Assembly: GCA_902799075.1 (NCBI GenBank)
Contig: CADBYZ010000027.1
Location: forward strand, 1-39,455
Length of the DNA stretch: 39,455 bases
Direction of reading: 5' to 3'
From: Oscillospiraceae bacterium
Lineage (GTDB): Bacteria; Bacillota; Clostridia; Oscillospirales; Oscillospiraceae
Shown: positions 10,637 through 37,517 of the stretch, piece after piece
Layout: each line of letters opens with the position of its first letter
How positions within the stretch are numbered: position 1 is the first letter of the stretch
The notes under the pieces: generated by a model
What the model was told of the DNA's origin: nothing
The model's input: the letters and a program-made list of their open reading frames with translations, nothing else
The model's database searches: none
Made by a program: the position numbers and the translations under genes

Positions 10637-10668
10637 GGAAATCGTTCCTTTCGTTTTGAGATGGCAAC

Positions 10669-10792: not shown

Positions 10793-10820
10793 TTGACGCG
10801 CAGGTCTTTTCATGTATAAT
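10793..10820 (+). promoter_or_regulatory. Promoter of the HD hydrolase and cardiolipin synthase operon
   Basis: TTGACG (10793-10798), 16-bp spacer, consensus TATAAT (10815-10820), then AAGGAGG before the ATG at 10861. A strong sigma-A promoter. Confidence 0.75.
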
Positions 10821-10860
10821 AAAAAGCATAGGATAAGCAGATTGTAATAAGGAGGCGCAT

Positions 10861-19683: not shown

Positions 19684-22600
19684 ATGGAAAACATCAAGAA
19701 AACGATCCGAAAAAAAGAGCTTGCGTCAATGCTCATCATTGCAGCGCTCTTTATCCTGCTCCAGTACGCGTTTCTCGCGGTCATGACAAGGGCCGGTGAG
19801 GCGCGCGAGAAGGAAATGCTGGAGCTCAATATGAATACCATGATGGATGCCGCGTCCGATGTCACCGCAAAGAGTGAGGCGGCATACGCCAATCTCTCCG
19901 ATAATCTGAAAGCCGGTATCGGCATGATGGTCAATTACCTGAAGGAATTTGCCGGTAAGGACGGATACACCGGTCCCCGTGCGTTTTCCGACGGAGCGGT
20001 GGCCGAGCTCCGGGACGGGCAGGTGATCTTCCCGGAGGGTTACCGGAGCCTTGAAAAGCAGGTAACGCCGGAGCTCATCGAGGAAGGCCTCAAAAGCGGC
20101 GCCGTCATGACCTGCAGGGTAACGGCGGACGAGGAATTGAAACGCATGCTGGCGGATCCCAAAATAAAGGAATATGCTGCCGACGCCGATTCCGCGTACT
20201 ATTATCTGTCCTTCGGGGAGATCGCGCCGGATATTGTCTATGTGGACATCCTGTCCGAGGATGAATACAATGCTTATCTGGAGCGCTGCACCCGGATCGT
20301 CAATAATGCGCTCGAAAGCACCAACAGCTCCATCGGCGGCATCACGTTGGTGCTGCAGGAGGAAGACGGGGAGAAGAAGCTTCTCAGTCAGTACGGCACG
20401 GATACGGCGTTCCAGTCCCTGTCGTCGCAGGGCCTGATCGGACGGATGATCCGCGAGGAGCTGCCCGTCGTCACCCTGGACGGGCAGGAATACGACTGCG
20501 CCTATGCATACCTTGAGCAGAGCAACACCACAGAGGGACCGCTCACCTTCATTCAGATGATCCCGAGGACTTCCCTTCGGGAGGAAAACAGGCCGCGTGT
20601 GCTGCTTATGGAGTTCAGCATGCTGGTCATCCTGACCGCAATCACGGTTTATATAACCGCTGCCCAGCAGACCATGCTGGAAGGGGAGCTTACGGATGAA
20701 CTCAGGAACCGCTACAGCCCGAAGCGGATGCGCAAGCGCATGGTGAAGGCCAATATCCTGTGCGTTGTGATCGCCTTCGCGTTCGTGACGCTGGCGGAAG
20801 CGGTCGGCCTGACGTACACGGAGCTCAGAAACGGCAGGGTCATCCTGAACCTGTTTTCCAGGCAGCTGGAGCGGAACAACGAGGAGGAGGCCCGGCAGAT
20901 CCAGCGGGAAGAGGAGGAGTGGATCGTATACCACGGGGAAAAGCTTGCACTGCTTCTGTCTGAGCATCCCGAGCTGAACACACGCGAAAAGCTCCGGGAG
21001 ACTGCCGAAATCATCGGCGCCGAAACGATCACGTTGTTCGACTCCCGGGGAAGACAGACTCTCTCCAGCGGCGATTATACCGGTTTTCGCCTGGATGATG
21101 AGGACTATCCCACGCTGTACGATTTCAGACGCCTGCTTTACGGCGTGCCGAGCATTATCCATGAGACAGCCATGGACCCCATCACGGATCTCAAGCGGCA
21201 GCAGATCGGCGTGACGATGCCGCTGGGGGAGGGGGACAACATGCATGGCGCGCTGATCATGACCCTTCTGCCGGAGAGGACCGCGAAATCCTACGATACC
21301 GGCAATACCGGCATACTCAGATCCGTAAGCGGGACGATCTGCTTCGCGGCGGATTCCACGGATGGGGTCATCCTGTATTCCAGCCAGCCCGGCATGATCC
21401 GGAAGCATATCAGCGAATGCGGCCTGCCGGAGGACAGCCTGCGCGACAGCATTGTGGACTTTGTCACGATTTCAAACAACAACTGCCTGCTGATCTCCAG
21501 CCGTGAAGACAATATCGTGTGCTACTATGCCGCCGGAACGCAGACGGTGTTCAGCCGGACCCTCCTGGTCAGCGCCGTCATTTCCCTGATCTTCGGCGCA
21601 ACACTGGCGATGCACATAGCGTTCCTCATGAAAGGATATAACGAGGAAAACTTCCGGAAACTTGAGGCCCTGCGGGAAGAGGAGCAGGATCGCCTCAAAG
21701 AGCGCTACGCCAGAATGAAGGACAAATACGGCGTTGAAGAGGACGAAAAGAAAATCGCTGTCATCCGAAGGCTGCACGAGCTGATCGGCTGGGACCAGAG
21801 GAGCCCCGGCGGCAAGGCGGTCCTCGTCCTGAGTGTCGGCATGTTCTTCATCATTCTCTTTATCCTGCAGATCCTGAGCAAGAGACTTCTGCCGAACGAG
21901 AGCTCCGGCACCATGCTCAGCTTCTTCATGGGCGGCAGATGGATGCGCGGCCTCAACCTCTTCAGCCTGTGCGGCATCCTGCTGCTGTTCTGCGTCGCTT
22001 ACCTCGTCAATGTCGTATGCAATCTGCTGACCAGACTGACCGGCGGTGTGGTCTCTGTCAGAGAGGAGACGGTGATCCGCCTGCTCCACAGCTTTATGCG
22101 CTATGTCACGGTGATCGCCGTGATGTATTTCGGCCTTGAGTATCTGGGCTTCTCGGCCGGTACGATCATCGCCTCGCTGGGCGTCCTGTCCCTGGCGCTG
22201 TCGCTGGGCGCGCAGCACCTGATCAAGGACATCCTCGCGGGCCTTGCCATCGTCTTTGACAGGAGCTTCCGCATCGGGGATGTGGTGGAAATCGGCGGCA
22301 AAGAGGGTATCGTGCAGGAAATCGGCGTGCGCGCCACCAGACTGACGGTGAGCGGAAACAACACCTTCTACATCAACAACAGCGAAATCAGAAGCGTTCT
22401 CAACAAATCCAATGAGCTGTCCAAAATCATGCTGGAGCTGAGGGTCCCGGCGAACGAATCGCTGTTCAGAATAGAAGAGCTTCTGGAGCGCGAGCTGCCC
22501 GAAATCGGCAGCAGAAACAGCAAGATCATGAAGGGACCGTATCTGCTCGGCGTGACGGCTCTGTCCGGCGGCGATATCAGAATGCAGCGGGAGATCATCG

Positions 22601-22710
22601 AGCTTGCTGTCGAGGTCGTGGTCGACCAGAAGGACGGGAAAGCGGTCATGTCCTATCTCAGGCGGGAGATTTACCTGCTGTTCCAGCGGGAAGGGATCGA
22701 GTTGGTGTAA
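19684..22710 (+). CDS. Sensor-MscS mechanosensitive channel, two external sensor regions
   Basis: A 1,008-residue membrane protein; ATG 19684 follows ATTGGAGG, and the upstream frame to 19432 is a shadow of the LRR gene. Predicted order: TM1 (about 15-37), external region of about 265 residues, TM2 (304-325), TM3 (352-377), second external region of about 240 residues, TM4 (620-648), a charged cytoplasmic helix, then the MscS core: TM5 (708-731), TM6 (755-782), TM7 (800-825), pore helix with GVLSLALSLGAQHLIKDI (about 832-850) and the beta domain (FRIGDVVEIGGKEGIV, then TFYINNSEI). Standard MscS proteins are about 280 residues. The paired external regions resemble receptor sensor modules, suggesting a channel gated or tuned by an extracellular signal. 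A paralogous design is at 27689. Terminator at 22822-22847. Confidence 0.85.
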   Translation: MENIKKTIRKKELASMLIIAALFILLQYAFLAVMTRAGEAREKEMLELNMNTMMDAASDVTAKSEAAYANLSDNLKAGIGMMVNYLKEFAGKDGYTGPRAFSDGAVAELRDGQVIFPEGYRSLEKQVTPELIEEGLKSGAVMTCRVTADEELKRMLADPKIKEYAADADSAYYYLSFGEIAPDIVYVDILSEDEYNAYLERCTRIVNNALESTNSSIGGITLVLQEEDGEKKLLSQYGTDTAFQSLSSQGLIGRMIREELPVVTLDGQEYDCAYAYLEQSNTTEGPLTFIQMIPRTSLREENRPRVLLMEFSMLVILTAITVYITAAQQTMLEGELTDELRNRYSPKRMRKRMVKANILCVVIAFAFVTLAEAVGLTYTELRNGRVILNLFSRQLERNNEEEARQIQREEEEWIVYHGEKLALLLSEHPELNTREKLRETAEIIGAETITLFDSRGRQTLSSGDYTGFRLDDEDYPTLYDFRRLLYGVPSIIHETAMDPITDLKRQQIGVTMPLGEGDNMHGALIMTLLPERTAKSYDTGNTGILRSVSGTICFAADSTDGVILYSSQPGMIRKHISECGLPEDSLRDSIVDFVTISNNNCLLISSREDNIVCYYAAGTQTVFSRTLLVSAVISLIFGATLAMHIAFLMKGYNEENFRKLEALREEEQDRLKERYARMKDKYGVEEDEKKIAVIRRLHELIGWDQRSPGGKAVLVLSVGMFFIILFILQILSKRLLPNESSGTMLSFFMGGRWMRGLNLFSLCGILLLFCVAYLVNVVCNLLTRLTGGVVSVREETVIRLLHSFMRYVTVIAVMYFGLEYLGFSAGTIIASLGVLSLALSLGAQHLIKDILAGLAIVFDRSFRIGDVVEIGGKEGIVQEIGVRATRLTVSGNNTFYINNSEIRSVLNKSNELSKIMLELRVPANESLFRIEELLERELPEIGSRNSKIMKGPYLLGVTALSGGDIRMQREIIELAVEVVVDQKDGKAVMSYLRREIYLLFQREGIELV

Positions 22711-22821
22711 ATATGGCTTTTTCTCCCGATCCGGATTCCAATGTGAACCAACGGATCATATGATTTTCATTCATTTAGATGACGCGTGGCCAGCCGGCCA
22801 TTGATCCCCAGACCTGAAACC

Positions 22822-22851
22822 GGGCCGCTCTCCGACGAGAGCGGCCCTTTT
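22822..22851 (+). terminator. Rho-independent terminator downstream of the MscS gene
   Basis: GGGCCGCTCTC (22822-22832), CGAC loop, GAGAGCGGCCC (22837-22847), then TTTT. It lies 112 bases after the MscS stop. Confidence 0.85.
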
Positions 22852-22891
22852 CCCTGCGCTCCGCCCGGCATATAAAACAGGCAAAGCTCCG

Positions 22892-22928
22892 GGAAAAAGA
22901 ATCAGGGGCGAATTCCTCACCCCTGATT
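22892..22928 (-). terminator. Rho-independent terminator of the recombinase gene
   Basis: AATCAGGGG (22900-22908) pairs with CCCCTGATT (22920-22928). On the minus strand it is followed by CTTTTTCCC. It ends the recombinase operon. Confidence 0.8.
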
Positions 22929-22970
22929 CCTCCCGCTTCTCCATAACCACCTCATAAAAAGGCAGGTCTT

Positions 22971-24491
22971 TCATGCCCGGCAGAATTGCGCCGGGCGGAG
23001 AAGGGGTGCACCTGGGCAATCCAAATCCGAACCAGAGACGGAGGCGCGCTGGGTAAGCGCGCACTCCATATCGCTAAAATTTATAGTTATAGTGCCGTCC
23101 TTGTAATTGCATGAGATTACGATCTTGTCATTGAAAACATATACTGCGTTCAGGAACACATCAATAAGTGTTTTCCTCTGCTCAGGCTTGGCTATATCGA
23201 GCGCCTGGAAACGCTGCAGGAAGAAGCGGACTTGCTCTTCGCTGACGCGGGGCTTCGCCAGCTTCTCCAGCGCGATCTTGTTTTCAAGCTCGTCGCGGGC
23301 AGCTTCCAGCTCTTCCAATCTGGTCTTCGTGGATTTTGTTAGTATGCCCTGCTGGATTGCGTTGAGCAGATTGTTGATGCCAGTGTTGGCCTCCTGCAGC
23401 TGCTGCTCATACATCGGCAGTGCTGTGCTCTCCTGATCCTGCAAGGCCAGTACCATAGAGGTAATTGCGTCGATGGTGCGGTCATCAGCCAGCATCTCTA
23501 TGATGGAATCCAGGACCAGGTTTTCAAGCCAAACCTTGCGCACTGGTTTGCACTCACAAGCAGTGCGCTTCTTTTTTACAGATACGCACTTGTAATAGTG
23601 GTGGACTTCGCCTGTGCGGCTTGTTCCGCTCTCGCCGCAGAGGTATGCGCCGCAGTACCCGCAGAAGATCTTGGTGGTAAGCAGATAGTCGTCCTCGGCC
23701 TTGTGACGGGCCGGGGCCTTTTTATTGACCGCCAGCTTTTCCTGCACACGGTTGAACAAGTCCAGCGGTACGATGGCCGGGATACCATCCGGGATCACAG
23801 TGTCCCTGAAAGCAAACTCCCCGATATAACGCCGATTGTTGAGTATATGCTGGATGGAATTGTAGGTGATTGGATTGCCTCGGGTATTCTTTACCCCCTC
23901 CGCATTGAGCCAGTCCCGCAGCCCTGTCATAGTAGCGCCGCTGTCATATCGCTTGAATACTTCGAGAATATAGGGCGCGGTGATCGGGTCGATCTGAAAG
24001 TGCTGCTCGTTGTCGATCACATATCCGATCGGGATCGTTCCTCCATTGAACTTGCATTTCAGCGCGTTGTCTGTCATGCCGCGGACAACCTTTTCTGCCA
24101 GATCCGCCGAGTAGTATTCCGCGTAGCCCTCCAAAACAGATTCGAGGATGATGCCCTCTGCGCCTTCGGAAATGACCTCAGTTGCGGATACAACTTTGAT
24201 GCCGTTCTTTTTCAGCAGCGATTTATACCGCGCACTGTCATAACGGTTACGGGCGAAACGGTCCAGCTTCCACACGATCACCACGTCGAACAGCTTTTTG
24301 CTGCTGTCCTTGATCATGTTCTGGAACTCCGGGCGATTGTCTGTCTTGGCGGAAAATGCACGGTCGATGTAGTGACGCAGGATCGTGATCCCGTTCTTCT
24401 CCGCAAAGGCGGTACACTCTCGAATCTGGCCCTCTATGCTCTCTTCCCGCTGATTGTCCGAGGAATAGCGGGCATAGATGACAGCTTTCAC
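22971..24491 (-). CDS. Large serine recombinase (integrase)
   Basis: A 506-residue site-specific recombinase. The N-terminal resolvase domain is complete (AVIYARYSSDNQREESIEGQ with the catalytic Ser, then VWKLDRFARNRYDS). It is followed by the recombinase domain (PIGYVIDN, TYNSIQHILNNRRYIGEF), a zinc ribbon (FCGYCGAYLCGES and later CECKP) and a coiled coil (TRLEELEAARDELENKIALEKL). It cuts and religates DNA at att sites to move an element. The start is GTG at 24491, whose GTGA overlaps the TGA of the XRE gene, with GGAGGAG in the XRE tail as its ribosome site. The last roughly 20 residues (VSGSDLDCPGAPLLRPAQF) look unlike the conserved protein and may be read from flanking DNA. Confidence 0.92.
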   Translation of the reverse strand: MKAVIYARYSSDNQREESIEGQIRECTAFAEKNGITILRHYIDRAFSAKTDNRPEFQNMIKDSSKKLFDVVIVWKLDRFARNRYDSARYKSLLKKNGIKVVSATEVISEGAEGIILESVLEGYAEYYSADLAEKVVRGMTDNALKCKFNGGTIPIGYVIDNEQHFQIDPITAPYILEVFKRYDSGATMTGLRDWLNAEGVKNTRGNPITYNSIQHILNNRRYIGEFAFRDTVIPDGIPAIVPLDLFNRVQEKLAVNKKAPARHKAEDDYLLTTKIFCGYCGAYLCGESGTSRTGEVHHYYKCVSVKKKRTACECKPVRKVWLENLVLDSIIEMLADDRTIDAITSMVLALQDQESTALPMYEQQLQEANTGINNLLNAIQQGILTKSTKTRLEELEAARDELENKIALEKLAKPRVSEEQVRFFLQRFQALDIAKPEQRKTLIDVFLNAVYVFNDKIVISCNYKDGTITINFSDMECALTQRASVSGSDLDCPGAPLLRPAQFCRA

Positions 24492-24835
24492 TTTTTCTCC
24501 TCCGTCATCATTTTCAACAGGGACGCACGCAATTCTCTGTTGGCCCTCGTCCCCGGCTCGAAGCACATCTCCACGAATTTCATCATGTCGGGATCAAGAC
24601 GGGGCTTGTACTTATACATTTTTCCCTGGGGCTTATCTGTGCGGCCGAAAATATAGTCCATAGAGACATCAAAGAAATCTCCGAACCAGAGAAGCGTCTC
24701 CGGTGTGGGGTTGGAAAAACCGCTCTCATAGCGATTCAGACTGGACTGCTGAATCCCGATCAGCTTCGCCAGCTTGTTCTGGGAAATCCCTGCTTCTTCG
24801 CGGAGCTTCTTCATCCGTTCACCGACGATCTTCAT
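24488..24835 (-). CDS. XRE-family repressor of the mobile element
   Basis: A 115-residue protein; ATG 24835 with GAGGAG upstream. The frame is open further up, with another ATG at 24934, so a longer form cannot be excluded. Residues 1-60 form a lambda-repressor-type helix-turn-helix (MKKLREEAGISQNKLAKLIG, SSLNRYESGFSNPTPETLL), and the segment FFDVSMDYIFGRTDKP is typical of XRE regulators of clostridial elements. It is coupled to the recombinase by a 4-base overlap and likely controls it. Inverted repeats upstream (24868-24896) could be its operators. Confidence 0.88.
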   Translation of the reverse strand: MKIVGERMKKLREEAGISQNKLAKLIGIQQSSLNRYESGFSNPTPETLLWFGDFFDVSMDYIFGRTDKPQGKMYKYKPRLDPDMMKFVEMCFEPGTRANRELRASLLKMMTEEKK

Positions 24836-24867
24836 GTCATGTTTTCTCCTCTCTGCCGTCAAATTTT

Positions 24868-24908
24868 CTAATGTGAGATTAACATAACTTATACGGGTTT
24901 GCAAGCCC
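24868..24908. promoter_or_regulatory. Inverted repeats upstream of the XRE gene, possible operators
   Basis: TAAT-GTGAG-ATTA (24870-24882) and the near-palindrome GGGTTTGCAAGCCC (24895-24908) lie 35-75 bases upstream of the chosen XRE start, where a self-repressing regulator would bind. On the minus strand the second one overlaps a TTGCAA that could be a -35 box. Confidence 0.4.
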
Positions 24909-24923
24909 TTTTTCATAGTTTTC

Positions 24924-25100
24924 TTATTGGGCATCAACGTCTCCTTTCTGTTCCTGCCGAGCTTTCCATTCGGCAAATTCTTTTTGCCCCTCCTCGCTCT
25001 CAAACAGAGCCAATATGTCCGGCAGGATGCAGCGGGCAATCTTCTCGATTTCGTAGTCGGGCAGGTCGCTGTAGTTAATGGGTTTCTTTTTCCTGGGCAT
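24924..25100 (-). CDS. 58-residue mobile-element ORF
   Basis: A short frame beginning MPRKKKPINYSDLPDYEIEK and continuing with a helical acidic stretch (LFESEEGQKEFAEWKARQEQ). ATG 25100 is preceded by AAAGGAGA. Small proteins with a basic N-terminus, a (S/E)LPDYEIE motif and an FESEEGQ.EFAEW motif are common beside recombinases of clostridial conjugative elements; their function is unknown. The frame ends at the TAA 24924-24926. Confidence 0.7.
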   Translation of the reverse strand: MPRKKKPINYSDLPDYEIEKIARCILPDILALFESEEGQKEFAEWKARQEQKGDVDAQ

Positions 25101-25191
25101 GGTTCTCCTTTCGATTTTCGTTGATTTCCTGCGCGCGCTGTTGTCGCAGGATTGTGTCTAATTTAGATTTGATGTTGTAGAGCTCTTTCAA
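25075..25191 (-). CDS. Possible 38-residue ORF, low confidence
   Basis: Starting from a TTG, the minus strand reads LKELYNIKSKLDTILRQQRA and ends KETH, overlapping the 58-residue gene. The coiled-coil character resembles small helper ORFs of such elements, but the start codon and ribosome site are weak. Confidence 0.3.
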   Translation of the reverse strand: MKELYNIKSKLDTILRQQRAQEINENRKENHAQEKETH

Positions 25192-25311
25192 CTCTAGAGA
25201 GAACCGTCAGGTTTTCTTTCAATGGGTACAAATGCGTTTTGGATAATTCTGATCCTTCCTTTCTGTTTCTGGACATAAAAAACCGCGCTCGTCTTTTCAG
25301 ACTTGCGTGGC

Positions 25312-25521
25312 TCATGCCTCCATGAATTTTCGGTATTTCTTTCTAATGCCCTCCATCCGTTTGATTACGCTGCTGTGATTGGCAAACCCCAGCTCGACGG
25401 CAATTTCCGTATAGCTGTATCCCTCGTCCCGCATTTGAACGATCTGACGCTCTTTTTCCGGTAGAGTATCGAGAAATCGCTCCGCGTCTACCCTGGCGCA
25501 GACATATTCCTCCAGATGCAA
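25312..25521 (-). pseudogene. Sigma-70 region 4-like protein, 5'-truncated
   Basis: Sixty-nine residues starting at a TTG, with stops close upstream in the same frame. LDTLPEKERQIVQMRDEGYS followed by YTEIAVELGFANHSSVIKRM is a sigma-70 region 4 helix-turn-helix. Element-borne sigma-like regulators of this type normally have a longer N-terminus, so the gene is probably cut at its 5' end, close to where a divergent tandem repeat starts. It lies at the far end of the recombinase/XRE gene set. Confidence 0.6.
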
Positions 25522-25544
25522 TCGGGGATCGGGAAAGTAAAAAT

Positions 25545-25620
25545 GTTACTACTATTTGTTGGATTTACAAAAAGCTCATATTATATCGCAATCGCATGGC
25601 GCTGTCCAGCAAAACTTGCC
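25545..25620 (+). repeat. Divergent direct repeat, copy 1
   Basis: The 76 bases from GTTACTACTATT to AAAACTTGCC match 25694-25770 at roughly 70% identity by eye, including TTTACA-AAAG-TCATAT and GGC-TGTCCAG. The region is AT-rich compared with the rest of the window. Confidence 0.6.
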
Positions 25621-25693
25621 AAGTAAAAGAATTCTGATTGCATGCGAAGGGCAAAGCATCTACATATATTGACGACATAGCAAACAGTAAATT

Positions 25694-25770
25694 GTTACTA
25701 TGCTCTGCTGACTTTACAGAAAGTTCATATGATTATATTGCATCCGTTTGGCATTGTCCAGTGAAGCCCG
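25694..25770 (+). repeat. Divergent direct repeat, copy 2
   Basis: The 77 bases from GTTACTATGCTC to GTGAAGCCCG repeat copy 1 at an offset of 149 bases. One frame reads similarly in both copies (YYxLLxLQKxH), which suggests a duplicated, decayed coding fragment. Confidence 0.6.
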
Positions 25771-25786
25771 TCGAACAAGAAGCAAA

Positions 25787-25995
25787 AGCCAAGAAAGAAA
25801 GCAGCCTGGCATCCAGACCGCTTTCTTTCTTGGCTGCGCAAGGATAGATGCGAAGCATCGCAAGGGGTGCAGCCCCTTGTACGGAGCGAAGCGACGCAGA
25901 GGATGGCTGTTCGGACAGGCATCCAGGCTCCGCAGGACGCACTACGGGGCAGCTCACGCTTCCCCGTATAGAAGTGCGCCCTTTGTTGCCAAGGG
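25787..25995. repeat. Hairpin cluster in a non-coding stretch
   Basis: A perfect 16-bp inverted repeat (25787-25802 with 25820-25835, AGCCAAGAAAGAAAGC), then GATGC-GAA-GCATC (25847-25859), CAAGGGG-TGCAG-CCCCTTG (25861-25879) and a bulged ACGGGG/CCCCGT stem (about 25935-25980). Many hairpins in series are typical of repetitive non-coding elements or a structured RNA. No convincing gene overlaps it, and the remainder to 26225 shows nothing recognisable. Confidence 0.6.
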
Positions 25996-26225
25996 ACCTA
26001 AGCTCCGGTTTTACATTGATTGTCCCATGTCCTCATCATTTTTACAGTATTACACCCTCGAGGCCGTCGTATCTCACGCCGCACAGATGATACGGCTCCG
26101 CTCTCATCACGTCGCAGCGGATTTCTGTGCGGTCAGAAACTCGATCGCTTCAACGGCTCGCAGAACAGCTCCAGCGCCTTGCTCTCATATTATACGATTC
26201 TGTTGGCAGTCGTCGAGGGAGGAGC

Positions 26226-27602
26226 TTACCAGCCCCAGCCGTAGTCGTCCCAGCCGCCGCCCCAGTCGTCGTAGCCGCCGCCCCAGTAATCGCTGTAGTC
26301 CGGCTCAACGTAGTAGGAATAATCCCAATCGTTGTAGCCCCAGTTGTTGTAGCCGTAGTATTCCTCTTCTGCGGCTGCCAGAACCAGGAGGCCGAGGGCG
26401 AGCTGCTCCTCATCGGTCAGGCCGTAATTATAGTTGTTGTAGTTCGTATAGGTCTGCTGCTTGGGTGCGCTCTGAACGGCGCTGCTGACGTAGATGTAGG
26501 CGGTCGTGGTGCGTGCGCTCTGGTTGTTGCCATAGAAGGTGGCGAAGACGCCCCAGCCGTTCATGTTTGCGTTGACGCTGTAAACATTCAGCGTCGTGCC
26601 GTTCTCGCCGCTGTAGGAGCCGCCGCATGCGCTGACAAACTCCGCGGGCGTCTTCACGTTGCCGTAGGGATCGACAAAGCTCCAGCTGACGGAGGTGGCG
26701 TTGGCGGCATAAGCGATGAAGATGGCCGTGCCGCCTGCGGTGCGGTTCTCATTGGAGGGGTTCTTGGTGACGTACACAGCGGGGCCCGTTACGACCGGCG
26801 CCTGGACGGACTTCGTTTCCGGCGCGTCCACGTAGTTGAGGAAGATGCCGTAGCTGTTCACGAAGCGGCTGAGATCCGTGGCCTCGCTCGCCTTGAACCA
26901 GTCGAAGCTGGTATTGCTGCGCTGCAGGCCGCTGAAGGTGGTATAGCCGATGTTCAGGAGCTGGTCGTCGGTAAGGGGGTTCTTGTTCTTGTCGATACAG
27001 GCCACCGTCGGCGTGCCCTTGTCGATGGTCTCCACGACCTTCATGCCGAGGGTGCCGGCGTTGATCGTGTCGTTATACTTGGAAATGCCGCAGGTAAAGG
27101 TGATCGCCATGTCGGAGTGGGTCCCGCCCGCCGCGGCGGCATCTTCACCGGTGAGATCCTCGCTGACCTCGGCGAAGTTGGTGAAGACATAGTAGGTGGC
27201 GTGGTTCGCCGCGTCGTAATAGGTGTCTGCGCTGTCGGTCATGAGGTTGAAGAACTCGTCGTTCTGCGTCAGGGTGCCGTCCTCATCCAGGTCGAAGGCG
27301 AGCTTGAGGGACGAGAGGGTGTTGCGGTCCTCGCTGACCTCCCAGGCCTTGAGCCTGGCGTCGTTCTCGCCGTCTGTCGTGGTGGTGGCGGCCAGCAGCT
27401 CCACCCGTCCGTTGTGGTCCAGATCCGTGACGGCATAGTACCAGACGGTGGGATTGTCAGACTGTTTGAGCGTATTGAAGCTGTTTTTGATCAGGGTGAG
27501 CTGTTTGACAAGGTCGTCGGTATCGACGTTGTCGGCCCAGGCGCTGATGCTCAGCGAGAGCAGCATCACGATGGCAAGTGCAATGGCAACGATTTTTTTC
27601 AT
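26226..27602 (-). CDS. Secreted protein with calcium-loop-like motifs and aromatic tail
   Basis: A 458-residue exported protein. ATG 27602 is chosen over 27608 because AAAGGA sits at the right distance. Signal peptide residues 1-23 (ends ISAWA). Two EF-hand-like loops, DLDHNGRVE (about 60-68) and DLDEDGTLTQND (about 104-115), suggest calcium binding. A middle part reads like an Ig-type beta domain (ATSVSWSFVDPYGNVKTPAEF, TLNVYSVNANMNGWGVFATF). The final 44 residues (about 415-458) are 11 Tyr and 7 Trp with many Gly, Asp and Asn and no Lys or Arg, for example YDDWGGGWDDYGWGW. The tail may mediate carbohydrate stacking or self-association. Function unknown. Last gene of the long minus-strand run. 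Confidence 0.72.
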   Translation of the reverse strand: MKKIVAIALAIVMLLSLSISAWADNVDTDDLVKQLTLIKNSFNTLKQSDNPTVWYYAVTDLDHNGRVELLAATTTTDGENDARLKAWEVSEDRNTLSSLKLAFDLDEDGTLTQNDEFFNLMTDSADTYYDAANHATYYVFTNFAEVSEDLTGEDAAAAGGTHSDMAITFTCGISKYNDTINAGTLGMKVVETIDKGTPTVACIDKNKNPLTDDQLLNIGYTTFSGLQRSNTSFDWFKASEATDLSRFVNSYGIFLNYVDAPETKSVQAPVVTGPAVYVTKNPSNENRTAGGTAIFIAYAANATSVSWSFVDPYGNVKTPAEFVSACGGSYSGENGTTLNVYSVNANMNGWGVFATFYGNNQSARTTTAYIYVSSAVQSAPKQQTYTNYNNYNYGLTDEEQLALGLLVLAAAEEEYYGYNNWGYNDWDYSYYVEPDYSDYWGGGYDDWGGGWDDYGWGW

Positions 27603-27688
27603 GTTCATTTCCTTTCTGAATTCCGTTTTGTTTTGCGTATAGCTTCTGATGGATTTATATGAATGGGAGGAAGGCTCCTCCCTTCATA

Positions 27689-30535
27689 TCAAATATTCGG
27701 CGACTCCCGGTTCCCGGCGGTCTCCTGCGCCTGATGCACCACGATCTGGTTGAAGGGAATCTCAATGCCTCTGCGGTCGAACAGGAGCTTGATCTCCCGG
27801 TTCAGGGCACGCAGCGCCGGATAGCGGACGTCGGCCCGAACGAAGATGACGATCCTGAGATTCACGGCGCTGTCTCCGAGGGAGTCCACACCCTCATACT
27901 GGGGCGGCTTTACGAGGCCCGGGATCCTGTCCGTCATTTTCGGCAGTTCTTCGGCAAGGATCGCCTCGATTTCGGCCAGATCGGCGTCATAGGAGACAGG
28001 CGCGTCCAGCACCATGCGGGCCACCTTGCCGTCGCTGTTGACGATGTCGCGCAGGGAGGAGTTGTTGAAGATCTTGGTGTCCGCAAAAAAGCTGACCTTT
28101 GTGGTGCGCAGGCCGATCTCCGTCACCGTGCCGTACCAGCTGCCAACGGTGATGAAGTCGCCCACCTTGTAGCTGCCCTCCACCAGCGTGAAGAAGCCCG
28201 CAATGATATCGCCCACCAGATCCTTTGCGCCGAAGCTGATCATCAGCGAGAGAATGCCCGCCGAGGCCAGCAGCGTCTTGGTGTCGACACCGAACTGTGC
28301 CAGACCGTAGTAGACAAAAATGACCACGCAGATGTATTTCATCGCGTTTTTCAGCAGCAGGCACACCGTCTCCACCCGCATGTCGGAGACGCGGGCGATG
28401 AGATAAAGGATGCGGTTGAGCAGCACCACCGAAACATACATGGCGCACAGCAGGAAGACGCAGGCGGTCAGCGCGAAGATGTTAAAGCCCTTCTGCCAGT
28501 TGCCGGATATGACGTATGCCAGATTGCCTAAATCCATGACGCTCCCGTTCCGGTCAAGGCTGACATAGAGCGTGGGCAGCAGGATGAACAGGCAGAACAC
28601 CAGCAGCAGCCGATAGACGATGCGGCTGATGCGCTGCTCAGGAGTCTGCTTGTCCCGGGGGACGCTCTCCATGCCCCAGCGCTCCTCCATACCCCATTTG
28701 TCCTGAACGGGGATGAGGTTGGAAATGCCCGAAAACAGGCCATGTGAAGGAGGCGCTTTCTCCTCCGCCGCTGCGGGCGCGCCGCCCAGCACGATCCGCT
28801 GATACCCGCACAGCGTAAGCAGGAGGATGATCAGCGAGGTGACCGCTGTACAGAGCGCCATCCACAGTGAGACAATGAGATTGTCCAGCGTGGCCGTGCG
28901 CCGCACGATGGGCACCAGATAGAGCTCCGCAGTCTCACTGACGCCGGCATAGTAGGTCTGGCCGTTGATCTTCAGGAAGCCGCTGAAATCCTCGGTGAGG
29001 TTTTCCTTCCGGATTCCCAGCTCTTCAACGGAGAAGCCGATGCCGGTTGTGGCGATGATGTTTAGCGTCTCCTTATCAACGGCGATGGCGTGCTCCGGAA
29101 GCCCGATAATCAGGTTGGACAGCACCGTCTCAACCGTGAGCGGGCTGATGAGATCGTTCCGCAGCGCAGGATCTACCGCGATCATCACAAAACCGTCGCA
29201 CAGGTCCTCCTTGTTTCGCAGGCTCATGCCGATATACTGAACATCTTCATCAAAGCGCTTGTCGAGAGCCGGGTCCTGTATCACGCCGTACACGCCGTCC
29301 AGCAGGGAACGAAACTCATAGGAAGGATCGGCCGGATCTTCGCTGAGGCTGTAATGGTCATACGGGGAATTGGTCACGACGACCCTCCCGCGCTGGTCAA
29401 AGGCATAGATGTATTTCACGTTGAGGTCGTCGGCGTAATGCTGCATGTCCTTCCGTGTCAGCGTGTTCCTGTCTGTTTTCGTTACGACCTGCCCCGCGAG
29501 CCAGCATTGGGTCATATAGTATTCATCCAGGAACTGGTTGAGATTGTCGCGCTGCTCCCGATAGGTGTTCAGCGTCTCCACCGCGGCGTCCGCGTGCTTG
29601 CCCATGGTCTTGAGGTCGTTGGTCACGTCCGCGAGGATCAGGGTATACCAGCATACGCCGAACATCACGACGCAGGCGAGCGATGCGTAGCAGATCAGCT
29701 TCAGGCGAAGGCTCCTGACGGCCTCCCGGCGGCTGTCCGTCACAAGGGAGATCCATTTGATGAGCAGCCACATCAGGATCACAAAGATAAGGGTAAAGGC
29801 CAGCGCGTTTCCGATGATGTACGACGCCCACTCCAGAATGGGAACCCCGCAGACGATGTAGGCGTCCCCGTAATCCATCACGCAGCCGATCAGCGACATC
29901 CGCAGATAGTCGATAAAATCCTGGAAGGTGTGGACTCTGTTGATGGCAAGCTTGTACGGCTCCATAATTCCGAGGGACAGGTTCAGATTTTCGGGCTTTG
30001 TCCAGCGATTGATGGAGCTGATGGCGATAACCTCGTCCTCCGCGATCTGATCAAAGGGCTGAAAGAGACGGCCCACATAATTTTCATCCGGGTGGGCAAG
30101 AATGCGGCTTGTCTCCTTATCGACGACAAGCATGAACCCGTCGCGTCCGACCTTCAGCTTCGTGACCCTATTCATCCAGGAGAGGGTATCGCCGGCGATC
30201 TCCTCCAGCGCTGCCTCATCCGGCAGCGTAAAGTCCGCCTCGGAGAAGACATCGTGGCTCAAAAGCTCTTTCCAGCTCTCCGTCATCTGCGCGTAGGCTT
30301 CCCGCAGGGCCTCCTCGTTTTGTTCCAGCTGAGGCAGGAGCTTGGCCACCTGGATCACGGCCCGGTTGATCTGGGGCTCCAGACGGGTGGTGTAATTCTT
30401 GTCGAGCAGCGCTATGGACAGGATGAGCACCAGAACGGAAGCGAGCAGCAGCACCGCATAAAGGCGGAGCTTGCGCCGAAGGATCTGCCGTTTGTATTTT
30501 TTCTCCGCGTCGTTTTTTTGCGGATTACTTTTCAT
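27689..30535 (-). CDS. Second sensor-MscS mechanosensitive channel
   Basis: A 948-residue membrane protein with the same plan as the gene at 19684. TM1 (about 24-46); external region about 47-234 with Cache-like text (VGRDGFMLVVDKETSRILAH); TM2 (235-262); TM3 (276-300); a second external region about 300-548 (YIYAFDQRGRVVVTNSPYD, then FVMIAVDP); TM4 (551-577); MscS-type membrane part from about 640, pore helix ILSLMISFGAKDLVGDIIAG and beta domain (YKVGDFITVGSWYGTVTEIG, TKIFNNSSL). The sensor regions recall those of chemoreceptors and histidine kinases, here coupled directly to a channel. Sequence identity with the first copy appears low outside the pore, so they are distant paralogs. It precedes the DUF5684-like gene's 3' end by 27 bases. 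Confidence 0.85.
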   Translation of the reverse strand: MKSNPQKNDAEKKYKRQILRRKLRLYAVLLLASVLVLILSIALLDKNYTTRLEPQINRAVIQVAKLLPQLEQNEEALREAYAQMTESWKELLSHDVFSEADFTLPDEAALEEIAGDTLSWMNRVTKLKVGRDGFMLVVDKETSRILAHPDENYVGRLFQPFDQIAEDEVIAISSINRWTKPENLNLSLGIMEPYKLAINRVHTFQDFIDYLRMSLIGCVMDYGDAYIVCGVPILEWASYIIGNALAFTLIFVILMWLLIKWISLVTDSRREAVRSLRLKLICYASLACVVMFGVCWYTLILADVTNDLKTMGKHADAAVETLNTYREQRDNLNQFLDEYYMTQCWLAGQVVTKTDRNTLTRKDMQHYADDLNVKYIYAFDQRGRVVVTNSPYDHYSLSEDPADPSYEFRSLLDGVYGVIQDPALDKRFDEDVQYIGMSLRNKEDLCDGFVMIAVDPALRNDLISPLTVETVLSNLIIGLPEHAIAVDKETLNIIATTGIGFSVEELGIRKENLTEDFSGFLKINGQTYYAGVSETAELYLVPIVRRTATLDNLIVSLWMALCTAVTSLIILLLTLCGYQRIVLGGAPAAAEEKAPPSHGLFSGISNLIPVQDKWGMEERWGMESVPRDKQTPEQRISRIVYRLLLVFCLFILLPTLYVSLDRNGSVMDLGNLAYVISGNWQKGFNIFALTACVFLLCAMYVSVVLLNRILYLIARVSDMRVETVCLLLKNAMKYICVVIFVYYGLAQFGVDTKTLLASAGILSLMISFGAKDLVGDIIAGFFTLVEGSYKVGDFITVGSWYGTVTEIGLRTTKVSFFADTKIFNNSSLRDIVNSDGKVARMVLDAPVSYDADLAEIEAILAEELPKMTDRIPGLVKPPQYEGVDSLGDSAVNLRIVIFVRADVRYPALRALNREIKLLFDRRGIEIPFNQIVVHQAQETAGNRESPNI

Positions 30536-30562: not shown

Positions 30563-30976
30563 TCAGGGCCGGCCGATGTATCTGCTGTCGCCGAGACCCA
30601 GGAACAGACGGGCCAGAGGTCCGAACAGGATGAGGAGGATGCCGTAGCCCACGCCCTTGCCAAAGGACTTGGCAAGCTTGATGCTCTGGACGATGTGGAG
30701 CACAAGAGCTGCGACGGAGGCCACGCCGGAAACCGTGGTGAGGGTCGAGCTCGGCTCCTGCACGCCGCTGACATAGCTCGTAATGCCAACACACACGAGA
30801 TAGAGCAAGCCCATGAATTTTGACCAGCAGATCCCGTATTCAACGTAGATGTTCACGATGGGAATGAAGGCGAGAATGCCGGGTCTGCCGGCCTTGCTGA
30901 AGATCTTCCAGTCCGCGACGGCCTGGAGAATATGCCAGACGACATAGCCAATGATAAGCGTAGAGAGAACTTTCAT
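30563..30976 (-). CDS. DUF5684-like small membrane protein
   Basis: A 137-residue protein with four predicted hydrophobic helices and AAGGAG before its ATG. WKIFSKAGRPGILAFIPIVN followed later by KLAKSFGKGVGYGILL and LGDSRYIG matches a family of small Firmicutes membrane proteins (DUF5684-type), often found beside secreted proteins and signal-peptidase-like genes. Function unknown. The gene lies 27 bases upstream of the second MscS channel and is probably co-transcribed with it. Confidence 0.75.
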   Translation of the reverse strand: MKVLSTLIIGYVVWHILQAVADWKIFSKAGRPGILAFIPIVNIYVEYGICWSKFMGLLYLVCVGITSYVSGVQEPSSTLTTVSGVASVAALVLHIVQSIKLAKSFGKGVGYGILLILFGPLARLFLGLGDSRYIGRP

Positions 30977-31099: not shown

Positions 31100-32857
31100 T
31101 TACTTGAGATCGTTGATGTAGTCGGTCAGCGCCGCGCGGTCATAGAAGGTGGAGAGCCTGGCGAGGCTGAAGTCCGGCTCCGCGCCGCGGTCGATGTCGT
31201 AGAAGGAACCGTTCTTGGAGAAGGCCAGACGATAGGGGCTGGAAATGCGAAAGTCCGTGCCGTAGCCGGTGGACAGGGGCAGGACCGAGCAGCTGCCGCC
31301 GCCGGAGGTGCGGCCCAACAGCATCACCTTGCCGGTGTTCTTGAACACGTTCGGCACGAGGTTTCCGCAGGAGAAGCTGTTCGGGGAGATCAGGCAGAAG
31401 AGATTCTTGCCTGTCAGGCCCAGATCCTGATCGTCAAACTGGCGGTCGAGGTTCATATCCACCTTATACAGGCCAGTGGCGACCGCGCCGCTCATGGTGT
31501 TCTCCACCGTGACGGAGCCCTGGCCGAGGAAGGCCGAGACGACGAAGATCACCATGTCCGAGCTGCCGCCGCTGTTGTTGGAGAGATCCAGCACCACGTT
31601 CTCAACGGGGCTGCCCTCGCGCATGATCTGCGAGTAGGCGTAGAGCATAACGCCGATGGTATCCGTGACCTCTGCCGTGGGGGCGGTCGCGTAATAATCC
31701 GTGCCCTCCTCAGGATCCTTGAATTCATCGAAGGTGATGTAGGCGGTGTTGCCGACCTCCTCATAGACGGGCGCGCCGTCGGGATAGAATGCGGCGCGGG
31801 CTTCGGCGAACGGGTCGTTGAACGTATTCTTCAAGGCGTTCCCAATCCCGAGTTCCTGCAGCATCTTGAAATATGCGTCCCTGCTGGGCGCGTCGGTGGC
31901 CAGCGGAGAGCAGTTGACGAAGTTGCTGTGGCCGTCATCCAGATGAATGTTGATCATCTTGTAAAGAGCCTCGTCCGCGGCGTAGGTGTCGGTGCCCTTG
32001 AGCGCGTGGTCACAGCCCGCCTGTTTGCACAGCAGATCGAAGCTCTCAAAGCCGTGGACTGCCTTCAGGCCATAGAGATAATCCATAACGGCGCAGAGCT
32101 CGCCATAGCTGAATTCGGCCATGGCCGTGCTGCGCTCTTTCGGCGCGGCGGTATGAAACTTCTCGCCGATGGGAGAGTAATCGGCAACAAACCCGCCCAT
32201 GCCGCCGAACTGCACAACATAGAAGGCCTCGCCGTTGTAGAACACGTTCATGTACTGGATGGCCAGCAGGAAGTCGCTGAGGGTCTGGATGGGGACATAG
32301 CAGTTTCCGCCGTCGGCCACCATGTCGATGCCGTAGGAGGCGAGGTCCAGCGTCACGTCTTTGCCGTAGCGCTCATAGGAGCCCGGGCAGCGCTGGAAGT
32401 ACATGACCTCTTCCTCGGAGCCGGGGTTGCCCACGCCCAGGATGTCGATGAGCACTCTGTCCTCGTCGGGGCGCTGGAAGGCGTCGTAGTCCCAGAAGTA
32501 GACGCTGTCCGCGTCGCAGTCGAAGTAGGCAGGGTAGCCGTCCTCGCGCGTCAGGACGCCGGTGTTGCCCTCCATGGAGAAGCTGAGCTCAAAGCTGATG
32601 TTCTGATCCTTCTTGATGTAGGTGTGCATCAGATAGGTCATCAGCTCCGCCCAGTCCGCCAGGGAGAAGTAGGGCACGTCGGAATCGCCCATGAAGTAAA
32701 CAGGATAGGTCTTCATATCGTCAAGGTCGTTGAGATAGAAGCTCATGTCCTCTTTGCTGATTGTCGGAGCCACGTTTTTCGCCTCCTCGGCGAAGGCCGG
32801 GACGCTCAGCGTGAGGAGCATCGTGATCGCGAGGAGAATGCTGAGGATTCTTTTCAT
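31100..32857 (-). CDS. Secreted S41-family peptidase-like protein, copy A
   Basis: A 585-residue exported protein; ATG 32857 with AAAGGAAA upstream. Signal peptide 1-23 (LLTLSVPAFAEE). The N-terminal half shares the pattern of its paralogs (LPYF.L.DW.EL, FYGERST-type segment, YGELCAVMDYLYGLK). The C-terminal half is S41 tail-protease-like: LDDGHSNF, VVLDLSNNSGGSSDMV, PNSFSCGNLVPNVF with the probable catalytic Ser, LLGRTSGGGSC, and the shared ending YDIDRGAEPDF... YDRAALTDYINDLK. No PDZ domain is evident, and the general-base Lys of CtpA-type enzymes is not obvious, so activity is not certain. One of four paralogs in this run. Confidence 0.8.
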   Translation of the reverse strand: MKRILSILLAITMLLTLSVPAFAEEAKNVAPTISKEDMSFYLNDLDDMKTYPVYFMGDSDVPYFSLADWAELMTYLMHTYIKKDQNISFELSFSMEGNTGVLTREDGYPAYFDCDADSVYFWDYDAFQRPDEDRVLIDILGVGNPGSEEEVMYFQRCPGSYERYGKDVTLDLASYGIDMVADGGNCYVPIQTLSDFLLAIQYMNVFYNGEAFYVVQFGGMGGFVADYSPIGEKFHTAAPKERSTAMAEFSYGELCAVMDYLYGLKAVHGFESFDLLCKQAGCDHALKGTDTYAADEALYKMINIHLDDGHSNFVNCSPLATDAPSRDAYFKMLQELGIGNALKNTFNDPFAEARAAFYPDGAPVYEEVGNTAYITFDEFKDPEEGTDYYATAPTAEVTDTIGVMLYAYSQIMREGSPVENVVLDLSNNSGGSSDMVIFVVSAFLGQGSVTVENTMSGAVATGLYKVDMNLDRQFDDQDLGLTGKNLFCLISPNSFSCGNLVPNVFKNTGKVMLLGRTSGGGSCSVLPLSTGYGTDFRISSPYRLAFSKNGSFYDIDRGAEPDFSLARLSTFYDRAALTDYINDLK

Positions 32858-32910
32858 AGCTGCAAGTTTCCTTTCACAATCTTTTGCTTTTTCCATTTCC
32901 ATGCTTTTTC

Positions 32911-32950
32911 CGCGTGTTATGGCTCTCTGTCAGAAAAGCCATAACACGCG
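32911..32950. repeat. Perfect 14-bp inverted repeat between two S41-like genes
   Basis: CGCGTGTTATGGCT (32911-32924) and AGCCATAACACGCG (32937-32950) are exact reverse complements around a 12-base loop. Neither side has a T tract, so it is not a classical terminator; it may act as an operator, mRNA stabiliser or processing site between copy B and copy A. Confidence 0.65.
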
Positions 32951-32976
32951 ATTAATCCAGGCTCGGTGCCTGCAAA

Positions 32977-34805
32977 TCAGTAAATGCTGTTGATGAAGTC
33001 GGTCAGGGCTGCGCGGTCGTAGTACTTCTCCGGGGTGGAGATGACGGCGTCCGGCTCCGCGCCGCGGTCCACGTCGTAGAAGGAACCGTTCTTCAGGAAG
33101 GACACGCGGGTGTTGGCGGAAATCTGGAAGGAAGTGCCCCAGGGGGAGTTGGCGTTCAGCACGTTGCAGCTGCCGCCGCCGGAGGTGCGGCCCAGCAGCG
33201 TGACCTTGCCGGACTCCTTGAAGGCGCAGGGGACATAGTTGCCGTTGGAGAAGCTGAACGGGGACTCCAGGCAGAACACATCGCGCCGGTCATCTGGTCA
33301 ACGTTGCTGATGCAGCACTCGCCCAGGAACCAGGCGGTGACATAAGCCGCGACGTTGTCCGCGCCGCCGCCGTTGCAGCTCAGGTCGATGACCACGTTCT
33401 CAATGGGGCTGTTCTCGCGGGTGATCTGCTCGTGGGCCTTGATCAGGAGGGCGAAGACGTCGTTTTCGGCAATGTCCTTGTGCTCGTCAAGATGATAGTA
33501 GTCCTCAGGCTGGAGGGTGATATCGCTTATGAACTGGTCAAAGGTGATGTAGGCCGTGTTGCCGATTTCCTCGTAGCCGGGTACGCCGTCGGGATAGAAC
33601 TTCGCGCGGGCTTCCATCTGGCGGTCCATATGATCGCCGAGGCGGCCTCTGGACAAGCCGACAGCCTTGTATTCAACAGGACCGGTCAGGTAGGAGAAGG
33701 CGTGCCAGGCGGTGTGGCCGTCGTCAAGGAAGTCGGTGATCATGCGGTAAATCGCGGCGTCCGCCTGCTTCACCTCCGGGCCCTTGAGCAGCTGGTCAAA
33801 GCCGACGTTGTGGAAGAGCTGGCCAAAGCTCTCGATGCCGTGAACATCCTTCAGACCGTAGAAGTAGTCCAGCATCATGCACAGCTCATTGTAGCCGTAC
33901 TCCGTCAGGGCCTCGCTGCGCTCGCCGGTGGGCACGTCGTAGTAGACATCGGCGCATCCTTCCGTGTTGCCGGACAGGAACACGTATTTGCCGTTGAAGT
34001 AGAGGTCGCCATACATCGTATTGGGCATAAAAATGTCGGAGAGCGTCGCCATGGGGATCAGGTACAGGCCGTCCTGCTGGATCAGGTCGATGTTGTAGGC
34101 CGCCAGATCGAACTTCAGCGCGTCGCCGTAACGGTAGAAGGAGCCGGTGTCGACCTTCTGCAGCAGCGTGGGCTCGCCCGCCTCATTGAAGGTGGACATC
34201 GTCACGGTGTCCAGGGGCGTCGCGGATTCGGGGCGCAGCGTGAAGAGGTTGTAGTCCATGAACTCAATGTAGTTTTCGTCAAAGTCGAAGGTCACGGGGG
34301 AGAGGTTGTCGTCGGCCTCGGGGTTTGCGTTGTGGCGGGTGCAGGTCACGACGGGGCCGTCCGCGCTCAGCTCAAAGCTGATGGCGGCGTCCCCTCTTTC
34401 ATAGAAGCCGCCGAAAAGCTCCGTCCAGTCGTTGATCTCGATGTAGGGCAGATCCGTCACGCCGTCCAGGAAGTAGAGCTTCAGCTCCGCCCCTGCCGGT
34501 TCGGCTTCTACGTACAGAGGGTAGGAGGCGCTGGTAATTTCGTGCGCCTTTGCGGTCTTTTCCGCCGTGTCCTCAGCGAAGAGACTGCCCAGGGAGCTAA
34601 AGAGCTCCGCCATGTCCTCTTCCTTGACTGTATCTGTGCCGAAGAGCTCGTTGAGCCAGGCGGCGGTCTGGGCCTCCGGCGTCTGTGTTTCCGTTGTCTG
34701 CGCTTCCGCTGCCGGGGCTTCCGTCGTTTCGCCTTCGGCGAAGGACGCGGCGCTCAGAGACAGGAGCATCGAGAGCGCCAGGAGAATGCTGAGAAATTTT
34801 TTCAT
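32977..34805 (-). pseudogene. S41-family peptidase-like paralog, copy B, broken
   Basis: The N-terminal frame (ATG 34805, signal peptide ending ASFAEGE, Thr/Glu/Ala-rich linker, LPYIEINDWTELF, GERSEALTEYGYNELCMM, LDDGHTAW, ENVVIDLSCNGGGAD) is normal until WFLGECCISNVDQMTGAM. It then switches frame. The remaining C-terminal part lies in another frame (32977 to about 33279: FCLESPFSFSNGNYVPCAF, LLGRTSGGGSC, YDRAALTDFINSIY). By comparison with copy C about 25-28 residues are missing at the junction near 33280. The Ser of FSNGN remains. A deletion plus frameshift is the simplest cause. Copies A and C are intact. Confidence 0.82.
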
Positions 34806-34898
34806 ACTGTCATCTTCCTTTCTCTCCCTATGGGAGAACACAATGGGTTTACGGGTTTTCTGCTGTTTATGGATGTGTTTTTGCTTTCTGTGATTTCC

Positions 34899-36767: not shown

Positions 36768-36790
36768 TTGTTCCTCATTTTAATACGGCT

Positions 36791-36822
36791 AAACGATGGA
36801 CCCGGGAGCGGGCCCATCGTTT
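36791..36822. repeat. Near-perfect inverted repeat between the DUF4428-like gene and GDPD gene
   Basis: AAACGATGGACCCG (36791-36804) pairs with CGGGCCCATCGTTT (36809-36822) with one mismatch. On the minus strand only a short TTT follows, so it is at best a weak terminator. It divides the two genes. Confidence 0.5.
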
Positions 36823-36839
36823 GTGTGTAATTCCCGTGT

Positions 36840-37487
36840 TTATCTGCCGCTGCGCTGCTTTTGAGCCATGCGCCAGGATTTCATGAAGCTGTAGAAATCC
36901 TGGGCGCAGGCATAGGCGCTCTGAACATGCTCCTCGCTGGGGGCGAAGGCGGGGATCAGACTGATCTCAAGCATGTCAACACCCAGCTCGTTGTCCAGCA
37001 GCCAGAGCTTCAGCCTGGCGTCGATGACCTTCTGTCCGCTGGGGCAGACAGGGAGCTGCGGGTAGGGATACAAGTTCAGGGAATAATTCTCTCCCTCCGC
37101 GAGCGGTGCGGTGGTCACATCCAGGCAGAAGGTATAGATATCGTCCAGCGCATAAACCCAGCCGTCCTTTTTTGCGGCGTTCATGAACCAGCCGCGGTCC
37201 TCGTCCACATCGAGCGCGGGCATGTCGGCGTACATGCCGGAAGAAAACTGGCGGGTGGCGTGAAATTCCGACGCGCCTTTTTTCCTGTTGGCATCCGCGA
37301 CAGCAATGAGGGCTTTCGCGGCGTCGACGGTCATAGCCTTGAAATCCAGGTTTTCGTTGGGAATGCACTTTTTGCGGCAGTCGCCGCACATGTATGCGCC
37401 GTCGGCAAGGTTCTCTCCGAGCATTCCGCCGAGAAGTCCCACGGACGCGCCGCAGAGGGCGCAGGTTTTCTTGTCAAAAAGTCCCAT
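36840..37487 (-). CDS. DUF4428-like zinc-ribbon protein
   Basis: A 215-residue cytoplasmic protein preceded by AAAGGAGA. It starts MGLFDKKTCALCG, and a second pair MCGDCRKKC completes a zinc ribbon in the first 45 residues (DUF4428-type). The rest has no transmembrane helix and reads like a compact alpha/beta domain (WFMNAAKKDGWVYALDDIYT, YSLNLYPYPQLPVCPSGQKV, VQSAYACAQDFYSFMKSW). Function unknown. It lies 30 bases downstream of copy C and upstream of the GDPD gene, in the same run. Confidence 0.7.
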   Translation of the reverse strand: MGLFDKKTCALCGASVGLLGGMLGENLADGAYMCGDCRKKCIPNENLDFKAMTVDAAKALIAVADANRKKGASEFHATRQFSSGMYADMPALDVDEDRGWFMNAAKKDGWVYALDDIYTFCLDVTTAPLAEGENYSLNLYPYPQLPVCPSGQKVIDARLKLWLLDNELGVDMLEISLIPAFAPSEEHVQSAYACAQDFYSFMKSWRMAQKQRSGR

Positions 37488-37517
37488 TTGTGATTCTCCT
37501 TTAATCGGTTAAGCAAA

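Follow-up and report, generated by a model that had tools for sequence, protein, structure and literature searches.

MscS-family channels with two predicted extracellular Cache-type sensor units per subunit in gut and rumen bacteria

The locus described here raises the question whether an MscS-type pore can be joined, within one polypeptide, to receptor-like modules on the outside of the cell, and whether such a channel would answer to a ligand rather than to tension. The window, the whole stretch of 39,455 nucleotides that was analyzed (contig CADBYZ010000027.1 of the Oscillospiraceae assembly GCA_902799075.1), holds two candidate genes, here termed W1 and W2 (Table 1). A first-pass annotation had described them as two distantly related MscS-type proteins of 1,008 and 948 residues on opposite strands, and the open reading frames and an identity of 21% between the proteins bear this out. 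It had also given the order of parts as TM, external region, two TMs, external region, TM and MscS core. Hydropathy and Pfam recovered this order in both proteins: a first TM, ectodomain 1, a TM, a short loop, a TM, ectodomain 2, a fourth TM, a linker and the TMs of the channel. By hydropathy, ectodomain 1 comprises 271 aa in W1 and 196 aa in W2, the middle loop 33 and 25 aa, and ectodomain 2 250 aa in both.

Table 1. Features of the two channel genes and their closest neighbors in the window.
Feature	Position	Strand	Evidence
W1, Cache-Cache-MscS channel gene, 1008 aa	19684..22710	+	ORF; GGAGG shortly 5' of ATG; Pfam MS_channel_2nd E 5.5e-14
W1 ectodomain 1, residues 35-305, double-Cache-like	19786..20598	+	TM bounds; AlphaFold; homology of ectodomain 1 and ectodomain 2 families
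W1 ectodomain 2, residues 377-626, double-Cache-like	20812..21561	+	AlphaFold model; Foldseek PDB matches
W1 MscS-type channel core, residues 713-1008	21820..22707	+	Pfam; PDB phmmer 3t9n E 6.3e-21
W2, Cache-Cache-MscS channel gene, 948 aa	27689..30535	-	ORF; Pfam MS_channel_2nd E 5.3e-11
W2 ectodomain 1, residues 44-239, single-Cache-like	29819..30406	-	TM bounds; AlphaFold; sCache_3_2 E 0.022, below cut-off
W2 ectodomain 2, residues 303-552, double-Cache-like	28880..29629	-	AlphaFold; Foldseek, e.g. Mlp24 4.2e-7
W2 MscS-type channel core, residues 643-948, three Pfam MscS modules	27692..28609	-	Pfam; Foldseek 3udc 2.1e-14
Small membrane protein DUF5684, 27 nt upstream of W2	30563..30976	-	Pfam PF18936 E 3e-11
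Secreted-looking protein, 80 nt downstream of W2	26226..27608	-	No Pfam match at E 0.001

The channel core belongs to the MscS family. The MscS beta-domain (MS_channel_2nd) was detected in all 15 members first collected, and above the cut-off in W1 and W2. A profile of the family matched the MscS structure 3udc with an E-value of 1.1e-61. The earlier claim of a complete core stands for W2, in which three Pfam modules score above the cut-off, and stands in part for W1: here the beta-domain exceeds the cut-off, the TM2/3 module falls just under it (20.5 versus 23.1 bits), and no third MscS module was detected by Pfam, the protein being alignable with its relatives up to its last residues. In the register taken from the 3udc alignment, the two gate-equivalent positions, which presumably correspond to L105 and L109 of E. 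coli MscS, are hydrophobic in 52 of 52 rows (L/F/V/I and L/F/I). The pore helix and the beta-domain are the most conserved parts, and of 22 invariant columns, 20 fall at W2 residue 680 or beyond it. Two of the 15 members, G000b of this genome (L036:1423-4092) and its orthologue G027b (L038:1284-3917), lack the MscS C-terminal vestibule domain, their chains stopping in an acidic tail shortly past the beta-domain. Pfam matched neither a cyclic-nucleotide-binding domain, the mark of the bCNG subfamily, nor a Cys-loop-type channel domain in W1, W2 or the 15 members.

We then asked what the external regions are. Among 45 N-terminal halves of relatives, 21 matched dCache_1 (Pfam, E 0.01). The next three families were dCache_2 and sCache_3_2, with 6 of 45 each, and CHASE4, none of the three exceeding 6. 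Four of the first 15 members matched dCache_1, and the best relatives reached 6.7e-12; where scores of channel proteins are given, the Cache matches lie under the Pfam curated cut-off. No Pfam Cache model matched W1, either as full protein or as N-terminal half, and W2 gave only sCache_3_2 at 15.2 bits against a curated cut-off of 28.4. Structure prediction, which the first-pass annotation had proposed for both proteins, gave a clearer picture. The AlphaFold model of W1 residues 1-660 (mean pLDDT 83.7, pTM 0.71) shows a long helix followed by two alpha/beta modules, and this set occurs twice. In the model of whole W2 (mean pLDDT 80.7, pTM 0.68) ectodomain 2 is double, and ectodomain 1 is shorter and looks like a single Cache domain rather than a double one, which corrects our reading of this part. 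With these pLDDT values, unstructured loops were ruled out. All 50 PDB matches listed by Foldseek for the W1 model are chemoreceptors or sensor kinases, mostly their ligand-binding domains (best 3.5e-7); TM-scores were low, at 0.13-0.45 by either length, with an rmsd of 8.9-12.3 A. In the models, one or more PAS-like alpha/beta modules thus follow a long N-terminal helix in the extracellular stretch between two TMs, as in Cache domains. Taken together, Pfam matches in relatives, AlphaFold models and Foldseek matches indicate that the ectodomains of W1 and W2 are Cache-type sensors by predicted fold, so that a sensor fold is present where its lack would have spoken against the annotation, and receptor-like modules do share a chain with an MscS core. 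RxWY is the amino-acid-binding motif of dCache sensors. A motif of this type was found in 0 of 52 alignment rows, which rules out an amino-acid sensor by motif, and hence no ligand can be named.

An intracellular position of these regions would equally have told against the annotation. The distribution of charge places both outside the cell and rules out the inside location: in 15 of 15 members first collected, the N-terminus and the middle loop are net positive and both ectodomains net negative. In the wider set described below, scoring by the simple order was possible for 67 of the 71 complete relatives from the best 80 of at least 564. In these 67, the N-terminus is positive in 58, negative in 7 and even in 2, and the middle loop positive in 60, negative in 3 and even in 4; ectodomain 1 is negative in 66 and positive in 1, and ectodomain 2 negative in all. 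Exactly two ectodomains before the core, counted as stretches of at least 150 aa between TMs, were present in 70 of the 71 complete relatives among the best 80 of at least 564, a regularity that exceeds chance. In the single exception, L096, the missing first TM is encoded in frame a short way 5' of the ATG that our script had chosen, so this relative probably fits the two-ectodomain layout as well.

The two ectodomains resemble each other. Comparison of the ectodomain 1 and ectodomain 2 families with hhalign gave E-values of 1.5e-13 (15 rows) and 2.3e-28 (70 rows, from the best 80 listed), and nine controls (reversed, column-shuffled and core) ranged from 0.03 to 0.97. By this profile comparison the two are homologous, hence the sensor unit was duplicated. 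Between orthologues, ectodomain 1 was less alike than ectodomain 2 in four of five pairs and less alike than the C-terminal 330 aa in all five. The same kind of sensor is used elsewhere: the ectodomain 2 profile matched a 651-aa TM-sensor-TM-HAMP-GGDEF protein of this genome (E 7.9e-18). A Pfam scan of ten proteins with a related ectodomain, including this one, found MCP (L063, L168, L171, L172), GGDEF (L085, L065, L169) and SpoIIE (L070, L072, L080) outputs. Judged from these domain combinations, the related sensor is a module shared by several signaling outputs.

The annotation had called the architecture uncommon, and within the groups sampled it is. A profile search covered 60 genomes, namely this one, 36 congeners and 23 from the same order. 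It found the long form in 5 of the 36 congeners (G010, G015, G027, G032, G033), with six copies in G015; the remaining congeners gave matching frames of at most 501 aa or no match. G107, from another genus of the family, holds a further member with a 993-aa frame that is MscS by Pfam. In an order sample the long form was confirmed in at least 1 of 393 other genomes, a lower bound, since only some candidates per genome were scored and the long frames L073 and L075 were left out. Among five further frames of 945-964 aa in this sample, L072 is a SpoIIE protein, and L071 and L074 resemble it, by eye, in TM pattern and tail. In a phylum sample of 398 genomes the ectodomain profile matched 20, with frames of at least 850 aa only in this genome and in G820; the resulting count of at least 1 of 397 other genomes is again a lower bound, because only some candidates per genome were scored and one of this genome's own four was missed. 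A scan of one genome per species returned at least 593 stretches and at least 564 relatives, from which the best 80, ranked by similarity to W2, were kept. This set leans to W2-like members, and 80 is a lower bound; 71 of its loci have complete frames of at least 900 aa, and nine that were cut off or broken were left out. Three of the 80 are contigs of G015, G032 and G033, found in the congener search as well, and the set spans two phyla: Bacillota (Lachnospiraceae, Oscillospiraceae/Ruminococcaceae, Erysipelotrichaceae, Mogibacterium and other Clostridia) and Coriobacteria of the Actinomycetota, among them Senegalimassilia anaerobia JC110 and Collinsella sp. TF06-26. Gut and rumen bacteria carry such relatives. 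In the present genome, which is 76% complete, each of the four MscS genes detected is of the long form, with open frames of 901-1122 aa, and MscL is encoded as well. Whether copies co-occur in related genomes received a divided answer: of six genomes with a W2-type gene, four have a further long channel (frames of at least 850 aa) and two do not.

Many relatives lie next to genes for solute-binding proteins. A binding-protein gene adjoins the channel on the same strand in 34 of the best 80 loci. In 19 of the 80 (L092-L108, L111, L117) it is of the SBP_bac_3 type and lies directly upstream, at 13-26 nt in 16 of 19 by aligned ends and at other short distances in L095, L096 and L117. In 15 others (L119, L127, L129, L130, L132, L140, L142, L148, L150, L152, L153, L158, L160, L164, L165) an NMT1-like lipoprotein gene follows directly downstream within about 52 nt. 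Pfam established these identities in seven representatives, three SBP_bac_3 and four NMT1-like. The remaining 46 of the best 80 loci, some with little flanking sequence, show no such pairing. All 15 NMT1-paired genes fall into one clade of 37 rows (support 100/96), 22 of which are not so paired, and the SBP_bac_3-paired genes into two further clades, each with support 100/99, one of 4 genes in Coriobacteria and one of 15 in Oscillospiraceae. The pairing has been kept in these lineages, and the 34 loci, belonging to three clades of relatives, are not independent cases. No ABC permease was seen beyond the binding protein when the next same-strand ATG frame of the 34 paired loci was checked by hydropathy; nine loci offered no candidate frame, in three cases (L105, L107, L164) because too little sequence was available. 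This check returned two membrane proteins with at least four TMs, in L102 and L158, which are DUF624 and a PrsW protease by Pfam, and none of nine flanking genes scanned with Pfam, including these two, is an ABC permease. In L200 (G032), a long channel at 9139-12294 lies just downstream of an operon resembling a tripartite tricarboxylate transporter with a binding protein, named by eye.

A second long channel gene was found directly upstream, head to tail and at 0-19 nt, in four of the best 80 loci (L089, L126, L131, L151). In L089 the upstream channel falls within the W2 clade (100/97), and the downstream one is in a group including W1 (94/85) whose inner support is weak (87/12). The six genes of L126, L131 and L151 form one clade (100/99) that splits into upstream (100/99) and downstream partners (100/96), hence this tandem pair arose once and has since been kept. 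Such tandem genes suggest channels of mixed subunits.

The surroundings of W1 and W2 themselves are less telling. Between them are a serine recombinase (22971-24566) and an HTH gene (24488-25039), so the recombinase region is indeed flanked by both, as annotated; the channels are not peculiar to it, since this genome has four such long paralogues in all. Contig L086 of RUG674 covers residues 361-946 of W2 at 95% identity and keeps W2 together with its downstream gene and a recombinase fragment. The best W1 relatives of RUG674, a genome that may be incomplete, show 49% and 37% identity and are found on contigs other than L086, and a unit of W1, W2 and recombinase was therefore rejected. The DUF5684 gene is possibly co-transcribed with W2, to judge from its position; no counterpart was present among the neighbor ORFs of the best 80 relatives, which rules it out as a conserved partner. 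A gene similar to that of the secreted-looking protein also lies 80 nt downstream of W2 in L086. No binding-protein gene adjoins W1 or W2 or was found among 22 window proteins scanned. Elsewhere in the window, 13447-18936 encodes an 1829-aa protein with a Cna_B domain, perhaps a surface protein, and the genes in 31100-39239 run on one strand and encode, among others, a membrane GDPD and two S41 peptidases. In L121, the long channel is preceded at 25 nt by a gene for a GDPD homologue.

We consider it reasonably probable that W1 and W2 are subunits of MscS-family channels with two extracellular TM-Cache-TM units, and that a ligand at the Cache domain changes the opening of the core. A small solute, free or on a binding protein, would bind a Cache domain, and the ligand-bound domain would shift its membrane helices in a chemoreceptor-like manner. 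The fourth TM and the linker would relay this shift into the MscS core, to its tension-sensing helices and its pore helices, altering the open probability of a presumably heptameric pore and, with it, the passage of whichever species it may conduct. As to why the duplication was kept, our guess is that ectodomains 1 and 2 might form the usual two-fold Cache dimer within one subunit of an odd-numbered ring. From the sequences we infer that W1, W2 and their relatives are ligand-responsive MscS channels, probably assisted by binding proteins in some lineages, and that the long channels may open to a nutrient or signal. We also propose, more tentatively, a chemically gated MscS family of gut and rumen Bacillota and Coriobacteria in which each subunit has a duplicated Cache receptor, acted on by an extracellular binding protein or by a free nutrient, and tandem genes yield mixed-subunit channels; this we regard as quite possible.

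The conserved core and its hydrophobic gate are also consistent with a tension-gated osmotic valve whose ectodomains serve only to adjust its threshold or to attach it to the cell wall, with no small-molecule input, and other MscS subfamilies have large extracellular loops according to the available text of PMC4560390. We think this unlikely: the Cache-type fold points to chemical sensing, related sensors sit on GGDEF, MCP and SpoIIE outputs, relatives pair with binding-protein genes, and MscL is present, so that the role of osmotic valve need not fall to the long MscS genes. The binding protein might instead hand its solute to the channel for uptake or release, in a transport system without ABC permease that uses the Cache domains as docking sites. 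Cache domains normally serve signaling, however, we know of no MscS pore that acts as a concentrative importer, and a majority of the best 80 loci (46) lack a binding-protein neighbor, which makes such a system improbable to us even though binding-protein genes adjoin the channel in the other 34, no permease was detected beside them by hydropathy or among the nine flanking genes, and MscCG is described as a glutamate exporter in the text available of PMC6110860. The members without vestibule domain, G000b and G027b, would suit a non-conducting MscS part that acts as an oligomeric membrane scaffold and reads out the sensors to another partner; yet it is the pore helix and beta-domain that are most conserved, and we give this idea very little credence. 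The ligand-responsive channel that we favor has partial parallels among known systems.

The structures 3udc and 3t9n, which we take to be the MscS of Thermoanaerobacter/Caldanaerobacter, are the best solved match to the core by sequence and by Foldseek, but lack ectodomains and comprise 282-285 aa in their PDB entries. MscK and YbiO, found among the PDB matches to the core, also have a large N-terminal part ahead of it, but the family profile matches them over the core only, and to our knowledge they have no Cache ectodomains. Chemoreceptors such as PctA, Tlp3 and Mlp24 and the kinases DctB and KinD share the sensor fold by Foldseek and have the TM-Cache-TM layout; their output, in contrast, is signaling without a pore, and we know of only one sensor unit per chain in them. 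The cyclic-nucleotide domain of bCNG channels is intracellular and C-terminal, whereas the W1 and W2 sensors are extracellular, N-terminal and duplicated. What bCNG shares with them is a ligand-binding domain fused to an MscS core, and the available text of the same 2015 paper, citing bCNG, distinguishes 15 MscS subfamilies by additions that include ligand-binding domains and large extracellular loops (PMC4560390). Prokaryotic pentameric ligand-gated channels come close in that a Cache domain is fused to, or an operon-encoded binding protein accompanies, an ion channel, but their fold is unrelated and their Cache versions combine MCP-N and Cache rather than two TM-Cache-TM units, as far as the accessible part of that description goes (PMC549065). 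A survey of Cache domains lists, in the sections available, VWA_N and VGCC_alpha2 as ion-channel outputs, and 'MscS' and 'mechanosensitive' are absent from its main text (PMC4822843). Sensor-bearing MscS channels as an idea, and Cache domains on pentameric channels, are thus already known. We found no paper combining MscS with Cache or dCache in the literature searched, outside of which most subscription titles lie, and the same literature contains no description of an MscS channel with a duplicated extracellular Cache receptor and binding-protein partners.

If our reading is correct, the MscS scaffold has served bacteria as a base for chemoreceptor channels, whose outward-facing sensors are of the main type used in bacterial chemotaxis, and the pore of an osmotic valve would have been turned into a chemoreceptor channel. 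This would offer a direct way to ask how far ligands, rather than tension, drive MscS gating. Senegalimassilia anaerobia JC110 and Collinsella sp. TF06-26 (L108 and L117) carry their own binding-protein gene, which allows joint tests of channel, binding protein and ligand, and such channels would allow one to ask which fast ion or solute signals gut bacteria use.
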